In this document: positions 36,191-42,804 of the stretch, piece after piece
Layout of the letters: each line of letters starts with the position of its first letter
Position numbering within the stretch: the stretch's first letter is position 1
DNA from: Flavobacterium sp. GSB-24
GTDB lineage: Bacteria; Bacteroidota; Bacteroidia; Flavobacteriales; Flavobacteriaceae
Assembly: GCF_027924665.1 (NCBI RefSeq)
Contig: NZ_AP027043.1
Location: 1,426,001 to 1,490,000 of the forward strand
Direction: 5' to 3'
DNA: 64,000 bases
The notes under the pieces: generated by a model
What the model saw: the letters and a program-made list of their open reading frames with translations, nothing else
What the model was told of the DNA's origin: nothing
Database searches by the model: none
Program-made: the position numbers and the translations under genes

Positions 36191-36457
36191 TTATTTTCTG
36201 ATATTCAATACTTTGATAATCTCACGATATCTGTTGATCTCTTTCTTTTTCAAGTAATCCAACAAAGCTCTTCTTTTACCTACTAATAGTACAAGAGAAC
36301 GCTCAGTGTTGTAATCGTGACGATTTTTTTTCAAGTGTTCAGTTAAGTGAGCAATTCTGTAAGTGAACAATGCAATTTGACCTTCTGCGCTTCCAGTGTT
36401 TGTTGCACCACCGTGTTGTGCGAAAATCTCTTCTTTCTTTTCTTTAGTTAAATACAT
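36191..36457 (-). CDS. rpsO: 30S ribosomal protein S15
   Basis: The 88-residue protein is the standard length. It shows the S15 helices with TNTGSAEGQIALFTYRIAHL, the 16S rRNA-binding segment EHLKKNRHDYNTERSL, and LVGKRRALLDYLKKK. S15 is a primary binder of the 16S central domain. It has a well-formed promoter, a structured leader, and its own terminator ahead of pnp. Confidence 0.97.
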   Translation of the reverse strand: MYLTKEKKEEIFAQHGGATNTGSAEGQIALFTYRIAHLTEHLKKNRHDYNTERSLVLLVGKRRALLDYLKKKEINRYREIIKVLNIRK

Positions 36458-36480
36458 TCCAATATTATTTAATGATTTTT

Positions 36481-36495
36481 ATGTATGTCATACAT
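36481..36495 (-). promoter_or_regulatory. Dyad in the rpsO 5' leader
   Basis: ATGTATG and CATACAT form 7-bp inverted arms around one base, 24 nt upstream of the rpsO start and downstream of its promoter. Confidence 0.45.
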
Positions 36496-36511
36496 CTTTT
36501 GTAAGACGGTG

Positions 36512-36543
36512 CAAAATTAGATTAAAAAAACAGAAAAATCAAA
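36512..36543 (-). promoter_or_regulatory. Promoter of rpsO
   Basis: On the minus strand TTTG (36540-36543) is followed after 20 nt by TAATTTTG (36512-36519), an exact -7 match with near-optimal spacing. The leader to the ATG is about 48 nt. Confidence 0.7.
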
Positions 36544-38860: not shown

Positions 38861-39397
38861 TTGAAAAAATATTTAGTTCAGTTTAAGCCTTTCTTGATTT
38901 TTGTAAGCATCTTTTTCTTGACATATATTGTCTTGACTTTGCTTTATAAATTTTATTTAAATAGTTATGAAGCAGACGATTTAGATGGTATTACTATAGT
39001 TACAGGTAAAAATGCAGAGTTGTTGTTAAAGCTTTTTAATTATGATGTAATAATTCAAAAAAGCTCTCAAAATCCTTGGCAGGAGATTATTATGAATGGT
39101 GCTTATTTAGCTCGTATAACCGAAGGCTGCAACGCGGTAAGTGTAATGATTCTTTTTGTTTCATTTGTCGCAGCTTTTTCTGGAAAGTTTAAAAAAACAT
39201 TCTTATTTATAATCTTAGGACTTATCTCTATTTATATTTTGAACGTAATTAGAATTGCTCTTTTAACGGTGCTGTTATTCTATTTCCCAAAACAAAACGC
39301 ATTTCTTCATGGAGTTTTGTTTCCGTTAATTATTTACGGATATGTTTTTATTTTATGGATTTTTTGGATTAATAGATTTTCAAAATATGCTAAATAA
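38861..39397 (+). CDS. xrtF: Exosortase family protein XrtF
   Basis: The 178-residue polytopic membrane protein belongs to the exosortase/archaeosortase family. The catalytic triad residues are visible: Cys in ITEGCNAVSV, Arg in NVIRIALL and His in AFLHGVLFP. Exosortases process C-terminally anchored surface proteins. XrtF is the Flavobacteria subtype. The start is TTG, because an in-frame stop lies 15 nt upstream and the first internal ATG would delete the N-terminal helix. The downstream partner gene overlaps by 11 bp. Confidence 0.92.
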   Translation: MKKYLVQFKPFLIFVSIFFLTYIVLTLLYKFYLNSYEADDLDGITIVTGKNAELLLKLFNYDVIIQKSSQNPWQEIIMNGAYLARITEGCNAVSVMILFVSFVAAFSGKFKKTFLFIILGLISIYILNVIRIALLTVLLFYFPKQNAFLHGVLFPLIIYGYVFILWIFWINRFSKYAK

Positions 39398-39833
39398 TTT
39401 AAAAGAAAATAAGTTTAAAATCTTCATAGCAATAGTTATTGTAGTATGCTTTGCATTAATAAGAGCATTTGAAACAAAATTGTTTTACGATCCGTTTTTG
39501 AACTATTTTAAAAATGACTTTCATAGTCAGCCTTATCCTCAAGTTGAAACTCCAAAGCTCTTTTTAGGACTTTTTTTTCGATATTTATTAAATGCAGTTT
39601 TGTCTTTGATCTTGATTTACGCATTATTTAAAGATCGTGATATTTTAAAATTTAGTTTATTAATATATACCTTGTTTCTAGTCGTACTATTGGGAATGTT
39701 TTATGTAATTCTAGAATATTTTCCAGATGCAAGCTGGCTTCTTTTCTATGTAAGAAGATTCATAATCCAGCCTATTTTAGTGTTATTGTTTATTCCAGGA
39801 TTCTATTATCAGCTTCAGAATTCAAAAAAATAA
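39387..39833 (+). CDS. Exosortase F system-associated membrane protein
   Basis: The 148-residue membrane protein starts at the ATG opening MLNNLKENKFK; an upstream in-frame start would lie deeper inside xrtF. About four transmembrane segments follow, with the conserved loop FYDPFLNYFKNDF near the start and YFPDASWLLFYVRRFIIQP near the end. It matches the small protein that co-occurs with XrtF in Flavobacteria. Its function is unknown, and the overlap with xrtF implies coupled translation. Confidence 0.85.
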   Translation: MLNNLKENKFKIFIAIVIVVCFALIRAFETKLFYDPFLNYFKNDFHSQPYPQVETPKLFLGLFFRYLLNAVLSLILIYALFKDRDILKFSLLIYTLFLVVLLGMFYVILEYFPDASWLLFYVRRFIIQPILVLLFIPGFYYQLQNSKK

Positions 39834-39880
39834 CATTTCTTTTTGTTTTTTATCGATTGTTTTTTGAATAGCTTTGCAGT

Positions 39881-40279
39881 ATGAATTTGAAAAAGTGTAC
39901 AGGTCTATTTTTGGCGTTCCTTTTATTGGTTTCCAATATTGGGTTTGCTTTTGATGTACATTATTGCGGAGGGAAAATTGCTTCCGTTTCATTAAACACA
40001 ACAGTACAGCCTGTTGTAGAAAAAAAATGCTGTGGTTCAAAAGAGAAAAAGAATTCTTGCTGCAAGGATAAACTGGTTCACTTTGAAAAAAAATCAGACA
40101 ATGCAACTTTCAAATTTTTCTTTTTCCAATTTGCATTTCCGGCTGTTATTCAAGACTATAAGCCTTTAGCCTTTTTAGCACTTCCAAATTTTAAAAAGAA
40201 AGAAGTCCTTTCGTATTATTCAGATGCGAATGCGCCCCCCTTATTCAAATTATATCATCAGTATATTTTCTATTCCTGA
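39881..40279 (+). CDS. HYC_CC_PP family protein
   Basis: The 132-residue protein has an N-terminal signal or membrane segment (FLAFLLLVSNIGFAF). The family-defining elements are VHYCGGKI (residues about 26-33), a KKCCGSK pair and a second NSCCKDK pair, and a C-terminal ANAPPLFKLY. The clustered cysteines suggest binding of a soft metal such as copper in the periplasm. It heads a cluster with a TonB receptor and a heavy-metal-associated domain protein. The metal is inferred, not shown. Confidence 0.87.
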   Translation: MNLKKCTGLFLAFLLLVSNIGFAFDVHYCGGKIASVSLNTTVQPVVEKKCCGSKEKKNSCCKDKLVHFEKKSDNATFKFFFFQFAFPAVIQDYKPLAFLALPNFKKKEVLSYYSDANAPPLFKLYHQYIFYS

Positions 40280-40390
40280 TTTTAATGTTAAGATGCACTG
40301 CAGGTCTTGATTAAGACTTTGCATTTACATTTTGATGGTTTTTGTTTTGAGCAAACATCAAACATGTAATTCTTTTCAACATTAAAATCA
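40277..40390 (+). ncRNA. Candidate structured RNA (three-way junction) upstream of TonB receptor
   Basis: Complementarity read by eye gives a closing helix of 13 bp (40277-40289 with 40378-40390, perfect). Inside are a second stem TGCAGGTCTT/AAGACTTTGCA with a GATT loop (40299-40323, one bulge and one wobble) and a third, 13-bp stem with a single bulged C (40325-40337 with 40356-40369). Six T follow the closing helix and then the receptor ATG at 40397. No known riboswitch consensus is recognised. A transcription attenuator, a translation switch, or a MITE-like inverted repeat are all possible. Confidence 0.5.
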
Positions 40391-40396
40391 TTTTTT

Positions 40397-42403
40397 ATGC
40401 AAAAAAATATAATGCTTTTTATGGCGTTTTTGCTTTCTGTTGCTGCTTTTTCGCAAGAAGATTTAGAGGAAGTAAAAATTAATAAAAAGCAAAAAGGAAT
40501 AAAAAAATCCTTCACAGTAACAGCCAATACATCTTTAATTACAAGTAAAGAGCTGCTTAAAGCCGCTTGTTGTAATCTGGCCGAAAGTTTCGAAACAAAT
40601 CCATCCATAGATGTCAATTTTTCGGATGCCTTAACAGGAACCAAGCAAATTAAAATGCTCGGTTTAACAAGTCCTTATTTAATGATTACCGAAGAAAATA
40701 TACCTTCTGTTAGGGGAGCTTCACAAGCATACGGTTTATCATTTACTCCAGGAACGTGGATCGAAAGCGTGCAAATCACTAAAGGAGCGGGGAGTGTTAT
40801 TAATGGCTACGAAAGTATTTCCGGTCAAATTAACACTGAGCTTTTAAAACCTTTAAACGATATTCCTTTTTTCCTAAATGCTTATGGTTCAACCGATTCT
40901 CGTTTTGAATTAAATACCCATTTCAACAAAAAACTTTCTGATAAATGGGCAACAAGTTTATTCGTTCACGGAAACACACGTGTAGCCAAAAACGACATGA
41001 ACAATGACGGATTTTTAGATAATCCTTTAGGCAAACAAATCAATGTTTTAAACCGTTACCAATATTATAATCCAGAAAGTGGTTTGGTTAGTTTTATCAA
41101 TTTCAGGTATATGAATGATAAAAAACAAACAGGAGAAGTTGATTTTGATAAAGATCGTGATCGTGGAACCACAAATTTTTGGGGATCTGAGATCAATACA
41201 GAACGCTTTGATGTATCAACAAAAATAGGTTATGTTTTTAAAGATATGCCTTATCAAAGTATTGGTTTTCAAAATGCATTCAACAGTCACAAACAAGATT
41301 CTTATTTTGGATTAAATCAATACGATATCAAACAGAATAGTTTTTATTCTAATTTGATTTTCAATTCCATCATAAACAATACAATGCACAAGTTTACGAC
41401 TGGTTTGAATTTTACATACGATCAATATCAGGAATTTGTAAATGTTACCGACTACAGCCGAATTGATAACTCGGTTGGAGCATTCTTTGAATATACTTAT
41501 GACAATACAGATAATTTTAGTTTGATTTTAGGAGGACGAGTAGATAATCATAATCGATTGGGATTTTTTGTTACTCCTAGATTACACATGCGATATAATC
41601 CTTGGAAAAATGGTGTTATTCGTTTTTCTGCAGGCAGAGGAAAACGTACAGCGAATATTTTTGCCGAAAACCAGCAGCTTTTTGCCAGCTCAAGAAATTT
41701 TTCGATCTTGGATTCAAGCGGAAAAGTATATGGACTAAACCCTGAAATTGCATGGAATTATGGTGTGAGTTTTTCGCAGAAATTCCGTCTTTTCAATAAA
41801 AATGCAGATGCCGGTTTTGACTTTTATAGAACCGATTTTCAAAATCAAGCTGTCGTAGATTTAATGCAAAGTCCGCAGCAAGTGTTGTTTTATGATTTGA
41901 AAGGAAGCTCATTTGCCAATAGTCTGCAAGTGGAATTTAATTATGAGCTCATTCATAATTTAAATTTAAGAACAGCCTATAAATATTATGACATCCAAAC
42001 CGATTATTTAAGGGGAACATTTCAGCGTCCGTTACAGGCAAAACATCGCTTCTTAGGAAATTTAGAGTATGAAACAACAATGGATGAAGACAAACAATGG
42101 AGGTTTGATTTTACCTGTAATTGGTCTGGAAAGCAGCAATTGCCTTATACGGCTTCCAATCCTGAGGCAGATCAATTTCCAGATTTTTCGCCTTCATATG
42201 CTGTAATGAATGCCCAAGTAACTCGTGTTTTTTCTTCTGTTTTTGAAGTATACATTGGAGGAGAAAATATTGGAAACTATAGACAAGAAAAAGCAATTCT
42301 AGGTGCAGAGAATCCTTTTGGACCAAATTTTGATGCCTCTGTAGCATATGCTCCAATTTTTGGGCAAATGTATTACGCGGGTTTAAGATTTAAGATTAAA
42401 TAA
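40397..42403 (+). CDS. TonB-dependent outer-membrane receptor, putative metal type
   Basis: The 668-residue protein has a signal peptide ending AAFSQ and a plug domain (residues about 40-170) with an unusual CysCys pair in LLKAACCNLAESFETNPS and the motif VQITKGAGSVINGYESISGQI. The beta-barrel ends in YYAGLRFKIK. There is no N-terminal carboxypeptidase-regulatory or STN domain. Its neighbours on both sides are Cys-rich (HYC_CC_PP and HMA proteins), so uptake of copper or another soft metal complex is the best guess. Confidence 0.9.
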   Translation: MQKNIMLFMAFLLSVAAFSQEDLEEVKINKKQKGIKKSFTVTANTSLITSKELLKAACCNLAESFETNPSIDVNFSDALTGTKQIKMLGLTSPYLMITEENIPSVRGASQAYGLSFTPGTWIESVQITKGAGSVINGYESISGQINTELLKPLNDIPFFLNAYGSTDSRFELNTHFNKKLSDKWATSLFVHGNTRVAKNDMNNDGFLDNPLGKQINVLNRYQYYNPESGLVSFINFRYMNDKKQTGEVDFDKDRDRGTTNFWGSEINTERFDVSTKIGYVFKDMPYQSIGFQNAFNSHKQDSYFGLNQYDIKQNSFYSNLIFNSIINNTMHKFTTGLNFTYDQYQEFVNVTDYSRIDNSVGAFFEYTYDNTDNFSLILGGRVDNHNRLGFFVTPRLHMRYNPWKNGVIRFSAGRGKRTANIFAENQQLFASSRNFSILDSSGKVYGLNPEIAWNYGVSFSQKFRLFNKNADAGFDFYRTDFQNQAVVDLMQSPQQVLFYDLKGSSFANSLQVEFNYELIHNLNLRTAYKYYDIQTDYLRGTFQRPLQAKHRFLGNLEYETTMDEDKQWRFDFTCNWSGKQQLPYTASNPEADQFPDFSPSYAVMNAQVTRVFSSVFEVYIGGENIGNYRQEKAILGAENPFGPNFDASVAYAPIFGQMYYAGLRFKIK

Positions 42404-42462: not shown

Positions 42463-42804
42463 ATGAATAAATTAGTTTTAATAGTAATGATATCTTTTTT
42501 AGGGTTTTCTGCGCAGGCACAAACTAAAAAGAATAAAAATTTAAAATACACCACAGAAGTAAACGGAAACTGTGAACAATGTAAGAAAAGAATAGAAAAA
42601 GCGGCTTATGGTGTTCCCGGAGTAAAAACTGCTAGCTGGGACATAAGTTCGCATCAGCTTTCAGTTATTTTAAACGAAGAAAAATCTTCTCCTTTAGATT
42701 TAAACAAGGCAGTCGCAAAAGCAGGTCATGATACTAAGGAGGTTAAAGCTGAAACAGCAGATTATGACAATTTACACACTTGCTGCAAGTACGTAAGAGA
42801 ATAA
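42463..42804 (+). CDS. Secreted heavy-metal-associated (HMA) domain protein
   Basis: The 113-residue protein has a signal peptide (FLGFSAQAQ) and an HMA-like ferredoxin fold. The metal-binding CxxC is in NGNCEQCKKRIEKAAYGVPGV, and a second Cys pair lies at the C-terminus (LHTCCKYVRE). In the standard family, GMxCxxC loops bind Cu(I). A periplasmic metallochaperone working with the upstream TonB receptor is a reasonable inference. A strong terminator follows directly. Confidence 0.88.
   Translation: MNKLVLIVMISFLGFSAQAQTKKNKNLKYTTEVNGNCEQCKKRIEKAAYGVPGVKTASWDISSHQLSVILNEEKSSPLDLNKAVAKAGHDTKEVKAETADYDNLHTCCKYVRE

Follow-up and report, generated by a model that had tools for sequence, protein, structure and literature searches.

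In Flavobacterium sp. GSB-24, the gene for a small Cys-rich protein of the HYC_CC_PP type is followed by a gap of 117 nt, and this gap, together with the stop codon that precedes it, folds as a three-way junction ending just short of the start codon of a TonB-dependent receptor gene. The locus raises the question of what a branched RNA does in this position, and of what would open it. We analyzed it within a window of 64,000 nt (the whole stretch of DNA considered here, positions 1,426,001 to 1,490,000 of contig NZ_AP027043.1), the relevant features of which are listed in Table 1.

The HYC_CC_PP, receptor, and HMA-domain protein genes all lie on one strand, and we infer that they form one operon. 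The metal-gene context that a preliminary description of this DNA had read from the Cys-rich HYC_CC_PP protein and its HMA neighbor is matched by the profiles NF047658 and PF00403. The receptor shares 97% identity with its counterpart in Flavobacterium sp. ACN6, and relatives of it at E <= 1e-60 occur in 94 of 149 Flavobacteriaceae genomes. Just upstream of HYC_CC_PP, at 38861-39833, lie an XrtF exosortase-family gene and its partner TIGR04127.

Table 1. Features of the HYC_CC_PP to receptor locus, in window coordinates.
Feature	Position	Strand	Details
Predicted sigma-A −7 box TAnnTTTG of the HYC_CC_PP transcript	39869..39876	+	TAGCTTTG; first T 12 nt before ATG
HYC_CC_PP leader protein gene	39881..40279	+	132 aa, TGA stop; NCBIfam NF047658, 154.1 bits (cut-off 28)
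HYC motif	39959-39967	+	Residues 27-29
CC...CC motif	40028-40063	+	Residues 50-61
N-A-P-P motif	40229..40240	+	AAT GCG CCC CCC; then 12 codons and stop
Conserved C-terminal tail and UGA stop codon	40241..40279	+	LFKLYHQYIFYS
Closing helix, 5′ arm	40277..40289	+	TGATTTTAATGTT; starts on the HYC_CC_PP stop codon
Stem-loop 2 of three-way junction	40299..40323	+	5+5 bp, GATT loop, one bulge at 40318
Stem-loop 3 of three-way junction	40325..40369	+	6+7 bp around a single bulged C (40363), then 6-bp tip
Closing helix, 3′ arm	40378..40390	+	AACATTAAAATCA; holds A-rich stretch at −10 to −13 of receptor start
TonB-dependent receptor, first gene after the lock	40397..42403	+	PF00593, PF07715
HMA-domain protein (CopZ-like), next gene	42463..42804	+	PF00403; CopZ-type models below cut-offs

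A branched RNA from stop codon to start codon

The closing helix of the junction is perfect over 13 bp, with the TGA of HYC_CC_PP (40277-40279) inside its 5′ arm, and 4 more base pairs prolong it in the minimum free energy (MFE) structure (40290-40293 with 40371-40374). Its 3′ end is separated from the receptor ATG at 40397 by 6 nt, all of them T (40391-40396). Apart from the prolongation, these features had been described from the sequence beforehand, as had a 10-bp stem with a GATT loop and a 13-bp stem with one bulged C, and all were borne out when coordinates and pairing were re-derived, the latter two being recovered as stems 2 and 3. What matters most is the stop codon within the helix: the models described below point to the ribosome that ends HYC_CC_PP as the likely key to the lock. 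The window element has an MFE of −33 kcal/mol and a z of −4.1 (200 dinucleotide shuffles, 1 of which folds as well), and its two ends share 15.6 expected pairs, a value matched by 2 of 93 control intergenic regions from the same genome.

A DNA similarity search found a single copy of the element in its own genome, and it sits at the same place in the 80 relatives described below, so that a MITE or other scattered repeat, which the preliminary description had named as the competing case, is ruled out. Rfam returned no match over the element at gathering scores, in keeping with the earlier statement that no known riboswitch was recognizable; up to E = 10 there were nine matches, all far below cut-off and mostly to eukaryotic families. 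The S15-Flavobacteria ribosomal protein leader (RF03161), found at 36455-36519 on the minus strand of the same window, is likewise a cis-acting RNA of Flavobacteria, with an Rfam entry that the HYC_CC_PP element lacks. A long hairpin followed by six T could also be taken for an intrinsic terminator, or the structure for a stabilizer of the HYC_CC_PP mRNA 3′ end. We regard this as very unlikely: a G+C-rich hairpin is not what is seen, as 11 of the 13 closing pairs in the window are A-U, five T occur within 12 nt before the start in only 13 of 153 HYC_CC_PP loci from across the phylum, and placement from stop codon to start is needless for either role.

For comparison with close relatives, loci were fetched via the receptor and the best 80 of 425 were kept (76 of the 80 records are named Flavobacterium), giving with the window a set of 81 loci whose counts concern the closest relatives only. 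In all 80 relatives the receptor is preceded by an HYC_CC_PP tail that includes Pro-Pro and ends on TGA, the distance from stop codon to ATG inclusive being 76 to 126 nt. The three-way junction first drawn for the window is the MFE structure in 77 of 81 loci (the window and 76 of 80 relatives), and z lies below −2 in all 81, with a mean of −5.25 (30 shuffles each). The other 4 loci (L097, L106, L109, and L110) fold as one long single hairpin in place of the junction. The hairpins differ in sequence and length among relatives; used as a DNA query, the element gave matches in 59 of 199 genomes of the genus, most of them only arm-length pieces.

Covariation was counted in an alignment of 45 of the 81 sequences (A1), which we chose and which includes none of the 4 junction-less loci. 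A first RNAalifold run on the MAFFT alignment returned the closing helix, one isolated pair, and stem 2 only, and was incomplete because MAFFT had aligned stem 3 poorly; RIBOSUM scoring of the same alignment gave the 25-pair structure used for the A1 count, which is therefore not independent of the alignment. Standard pairs occupy 93.6% of the pair cells in A1, cells changed on both sides number 31 versus 12.1 in shuffles, and the covariation score of 0.150 (0.107 in shuffles) was reached by 0 of 500 shuffles, while the number of pairs with both-side changes is unremarkable (6 versus 4.9; 146 of 500 shuffles reach it). The support comes mostly from stem 2, with both-side changes in 3 of 6 pairs, and from a single G-C to A-U change among the 12 aligned pairs of the closing helix, the rest of which hardly varies within the genus and therefore says little there. 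For stem 3, a swap test on 77 sequences, uncorrected for relatedness, favored cognate over swapped partners (means of −4.98 and −1.99 kcal/mol). A conserved, covarying three-way-junction RNA stands behind HYC_CC_PP in close relatives.

A three-way junction adjoining metal genes might suggest a riboswitch that itself binds metal or another ligand, which is near the idea of the preliminary description. A conserved ligand-binding core is not apparent: the hairpins vary in sequence and length, the junction is missing in 4 of 81 loci, dissimilar arms serve in other genera, and no Rfam family matches. Because it is the architecture and not a core that is conserved, we reject a riboswitch as the best reading and consider it very unlikely.

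Stop-to-start complementarity across Bacteroidota

With the NF047658 profile, HYC_CC_PP was detected in 135 of the 149 Flavobacteriaceae genomes sampled and, among 198 genomes taken from across the phylum, in 59 (56 over the cut-off); the genome of strain GSB-24 gave one match. From 57 loci obtained in these searches and 100 that were fetched, 157 in total, removal of 4 duplicate intergenic regions left 153 different ones (the phylum set); pairing tests used the 145 with 40 to 160 nt, the 8 outside this range being left out. A stop-to-start helix was scored when at least 8 pairs were expected between two stretches, the 25 nt running from the stop codon onward and the 32 nt leading up to the next start. 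By this measure 122 of 145 HYC_CC_PP loci (84%, a count lowered by some wrong automatic start calls, as in L197 and L208) have the helix, versus 23% of 93 co-directional intergenic regions from the strain's own genome (G+C 0.23, compared with 0.29 for the HYC_CC_PP loci) and 21% of 1450 shuffles of matching composition. Anchoring of the helix in the first 8 nt, by at least 3 pairs, is seen in 79% of the loci versus 8% of controls and 16% of shuffles; HYC_CC_PP loci share kinship, and the P-values of both comparisons therefore overstate independence. The 23 loci below 8 pairs belong chiefly to the HMA class outside Flavobacteriaceae and to the CarboxypepD-domain receptors.

When arms were exchanged among 63 dissimilar loci, cognate arms had a median of −9.9 kcal/mol versus −4.6 kcal/mol for swapped ones. 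The cognate pairing beat at least 95% of swaps in 33 of 63 loci, and all 62 others in 20 of 63, with 30 of 63 failing to beat 95%; over all 145 loci, 45% beat 95% of swaps. The gap between HYC_CC_PP and a CusA/CzcA-type pump gene also forms a three-way junction, of other sequence, and in an alignment of such loci (A2, 38 of 42 eligible CusA loci of our choosing, with a structure derived from the first 26 rows) there are 19 pairs with both-side changes versus 11.5 in shuffles (0 of 500 as high), with a covariation score of 0.221 versus 0.141. Judging from these comparisons, the arm sequences diverge yet keep their complementarity across genera, and what is kept is stop-to-start complementarity downstream of HYC_CC_PP.

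Within the phylum set, CusA-type pumps, HMA proteins, and TonB receptors account for most of the genes downstream of HYC_CC_PP. These classes were assigned by short motifs, and single members were confirmed with Pfam and NCBIfam as CusA/CzcA family, HMA plus MauE, and TonB plug, the CusA/CzcA member falling below the whole-protein cut-off because the loci end early. In Flavobacteriaceae, a helix of at least 8 pairs precedes 71 of 76 RND pumps, 18 of 20 HMA proteins, 8 of 8 window-type receptors, 6 of 11 CarboxypepD-domain receptors, and 4 of 5 other genes. The corresponding counts in other families are 10 of 12 for RND pumps, 2 of 8 for HMA proteins, 1 of 1 for the window-type receptor, and 2 of 4 for others.

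As a control on the upstream gene, 30 Flavobacteriaceae receptor relatives, including the window's own locus, were sorted by a crude motif test for HYC_CC_PP. The protein is encoded directly upstream in 9 of them, 5 of which reach 8 pairs, and 2 could not be parsed. Another gene, by eye mostly an HMA protein gene or the end of a metal-ATPase gene, precedes the receptor in 19, and 1 of these 19 has the helix, a weak control because 16 of the 19 gaps are shorter than 25 nt and cannot hold the element; among the 3 longer gaps, 1 has the helix. The one of the 19 with a helix is L308, where a stop-to-start helix of 15.1 pairs follows an HMA protein gene. It can be said that gap and helix sit behind HYC_CC_PP whichever gene comes next. 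The structure, the covariation, and the stop-to-start placement behind HYC_CC_PP are what comparison of the loci shows.

Modeled opening of the receptor start by a ribosome at the stop codon

The sequence TAnnTTTG occurs within 60 nt of the HYC_CC_PP ATG in 81 of 81 close loci, with its first T at −12 in 77 of them, and is found in 4.2% of random 60-nt stretches of the strain's own genome. In a wider set the box lies within 40 nt in 29 of 45 loci and at a distance of 12 in 5. The sigma-A box is placed at −12 to −5 (PMC9723704); a first T 12 nt before the ATG therefore puts the predicted transcription start on the ATG itself, and the HYC_CC_PP mRNA should be leaderless in Flavobacterium, as are 5.5% of the mRNAs examined in F. 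psychrophilum (PMC9723704).

Translation initiation in F. johnsoniae depends on little structure around the start and on A residues at −12 and −13, as well as at −3 and −6 (PMC6847099). Positions −12 and −13 of the receptor fall in the 3′ arm of the closing helix, and the folding models predict that the intergenic structure hides the receptor initiation region, in the style of the CutF system discussed below. Ribosomes were modeled with a footprint of assumed size. With one placed at the HYC_CC_PP stop, the mean probability that positions −14 to −11 are unpaired rises over the 81 close loci from 0.013 in free RNA to 0.52 (from 0.003 to 0.34 in the window alone), and the mean cost of opening −18 to +6 drops from 9.0 to 2.6 kcal/mol, by at least 3 kcal in 78 of 81. 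The 145 phylum-set loci behave similarly in the model (9.8 to 4.5, with a drop of at least 3 kcal in 109), whereas control intergenic regions change from 5.1 to 4.7 and show such a drop in 3 of 79. The footprint was also slid along every third locus (27 of 81 close and 49 of 145 HYC_CC_PP loci). In these models, the lock opens once the leading edge lies 3 to 9 nt past the first nucleotide of the stop codon in the window and the 27 close loci, and up to 12 nt past it in the 49 others. A footprint ending 26 nt before the stop, which we take to be about the leading edge of a ribosome stalled at NAPP, has no effect and leaves the lock shut. A ribosome at the HYC_CC_PP stop is modeled to unlock the receptor start, and one further upstream is not.

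The nascent HYC_CC_PP chain as a probable metal sensor

The N terminus of HYC_CC_PP (MNLKKCTGLFLAFLLLVSNIGFA) resembles a signal peptide by eye, and its Pro-Pro falls at residues 119-120 of 132. Twelve residues follow in the window type; in the commonest class, 103 of 153 HYC_CC_PP proteins, 15 do. The motif reads NAPP in 78 and HAPP in 3 of 81 close loci. At its first and second Pro the rare CCC codon is used in 50 and 46 of 81 loci, respectively; the background is 252 of 3855 Pro codons (6.5%), counted in unfiltered ORFs of 150 codons or more from 20 stretches of the strain's own genome. The 12-codon tail after Pro-Pro has 55 nucleotide variants in the 81 loci but only 15 amino-acid variants, from which it follows that selection is at the protein level. 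HYC_CC_PP ends on TGA in all 81 close loci and in 128 of the 153 loci of the phylum set (114 of 121 from Flavobacteriaceae and 14 of 32 from other families), compared with 32 of 371 ORFs of the strain's own genome. This bias is not explained by the helix, because UAA would presumably pair as well. The last sense codon (40274-40279 in the window with the stop) is TCC in 71 and GCC in 10 of 81 loci, no other Ser or Ala codon being used. The HYC_CC_PP protein of L290 extends three residues past FYS and its gene ends on TAA; no helix is counted from that stop.

The modeled unlocking geometry needs no arrest, and the locus could be one of plain translational coupling without sensing, in which the helix ties receptor synthesis to HYC_CC_PP translation and any metal control is transcriptional. 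The promoter box at HYC_CC_PP and the three genes on one strand would suit this arrangement. It would leave the Cys motifs, NAPP, the protein-level conservation of the tail, the rare CCC codons, and the UGA bias unexplained, and comparably built leader proteins in the literature do respond to copper; we find it unlikely.

Another arrangement would make arrest at Pro-Pro alone the switch, with ribosomes held at NAPP keeping the lock shut, or shielding the RNA from Rho (a role proposed for CruR), until metal relieves them. The modeled footprint 26 nt before the stop, presumably that of the NAPP-stalled ribosome, is consistent with this, and metal induction would result here as well. NAPP and HAPP resemble the arrest motifs RAPP and HAPP (PMC10987492), which by analogy makes an arrest in HYC_CC_PP putative. 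Residues after Pro-Pro would then be untranslated during the arrest, yet both their sequence and the spacing up to the stop are strongly conserved (15 residues in 103 of 153 proteins; 15 variants among 81 loci), and 9 of 153 HYC_CC_PP proteins have no Pro-Pro at all, with sequences such as YPRP, AVP, or KTP in its place, 6 of the 9 keeping a helix of at least 8 pairs. A switch that is Pro-Pro arrest alone seems doubtful to us, and since the tail is conserved as protein and would be untranslated during such an arrest, control at or near the stop codon is favored, with Pro-Pro as part of the nascent-chain signal. The proteins without Pro-Pro (L140, L149, L151, L167, L197, L205, L208, L226, and L229) offer a natural test of its role.

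The explanation that we hold to be fairly probable is that the HYC_CC_PP leader protein works a stop-to-start translation lock, its nascent chain sensing metal. HYC_CC_PP would head the transcript, and the mRNA from its stop codon on would pair with the 13 bases just upstream of the receptor start, closing the three-way junction and hiding the A-rich initiation region. Only a ribosome reaching the HYC_CC_PP stop codon would cover the 5′ arm and free that region; as only the terminating ribosome is predicted to open the lock, the small protein is probably the metal sensor. The nascent chain, with its HYC, CC...CC, and xAPP motifs and its conserved tail, would sense metal during export, and this would set the frequency or duration of ribosome occupancy at the stop codon, which in turn would decide translation of the receptor and HMA genes. 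In Flavobacteriaceae, HYC_CC_PP genes that precede CusA-type pumps and HMA-MauE proteins would use the same device. Sensing of metal by the nascent chain is most likely, the metal is probably Cu(I), and we infer that the chain acts through arrest or slow termination. More tentatively, it is possible that the conserved tail and UGA make termination itself metal-dependent, so that the time a ribosome spends at the stop gates the next gene in receptor, export, and chaperone operons alike, through dissimilar arms. The preliminary suggestion of a metal- or ligand-responsive attenuator or translation switch holds in its last part: the unlocking models make a translation switch probable, while the variable hairpins and the 4 of 81 junction-less loci speak against an RNA sensor, and the five-T runs confined to 13 of 153 loci against an attenuator.

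One of the closest published parallels is CutF of Rhodobacter capsulatus, where copper causes a delay in the leader protein and the opening of a stem-loop upstream of cutO (PMC9973294). Both systems have a Cys-containing leader with a Pro-rich C terminus that is exported (predicted for HYC_CC_PP), a short intergenic stem-loop that hides the next initiation site, and a metal-homeostasis gene downstream (PMC9973294). The HYC_CC_PP RNA differs in being branched and in spanning from the stop codon itself to the start region, in being common to pumps, chaperones, and TonB receptors, and in belonging to a phylum without Shine-Dalgarno sequences (PMC6847099). CutF-like proteins were placed in Bacteroidota in 19% of cases (40% after normalizing), and the excerpts of that paper describe no such branched RNA for this phylum (PMC9973294). 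By the CutF-like definition given there, HYC_CC_PP at 132 aa is below the limit of 150 aa, and its same-strand next gene, 117 nt away, is within 1,000 nt. The 12 residues after Pro-Pro in the window protein also fit, whereas the commonest HYC_CC_PP class, with 15, would be missed by a strict limit of 15 (PMC9973294).

In the CruR system of Bordetella pertussis, copper relieves an arrest and represses a TonB transporter, and the authors state that a long gap excludes translational coupling (PMC9426467). CruR-bfrG and the HYC_CC_PP locus share a Cys leader at the head of an operon (a probable one here) whose second gene encodes a TonB-dependent transporter (PMC9426467). CruR is a DUF2946 protein that acts through Rho and has a C-terminal RAPP, where HYC_CC_PP has the related NAPP or HAPP in the proportions given above (PMC9426467). 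The window protein gave no match to any Pfam family, DUF2946 included, up to E = 10, a range in which HMMER filters drop most weak matches, and homology to DUF2946 was not seen. SecM, TnaC, and RAPP-type arrest peptides have in common with the proposed mechanism that a nascent chain controls a ribosome masking or freeing the RNA of the next gene (PMC10987492, PMC10951233, PMC9973294). For HYC_CC_PP the arrest is putative and metal would be the signal; the place of action suggested by its conserved tail is the stop codon.

Since CutF and CruR differ in sign, the sign of the response cannot be read off them; our guess is that metal raises expression, as in CutF, and induction is the more likely because most genes behind HYC_CC_PP locks are pumps or chaperones. 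Literature searches returned no paper on the element among the matches listed (titles and abstract starts), the nearest being those on CutF and CruR, and no paper naming HYC_CC_PP or experiment on it was found in the literature searched. The RNA element, without a match in Rfam, would be an addition to the leader-protein-coupled translation switches. With it, HYC_CC_PP, a protein present in most sampled Flavobacteriaceae genomes, gains a testable function and mechanism, including the precise prediction that the lock opens only with a ribosome at the stop codon. For bacteria that lack Shine-Dalgarno sequences, the arrangement illustrates a possible way for a lock to be opened by ribosomes, and in Flavobacteriaceae it suggests post-transcriptional control of part of metal homeostasis.
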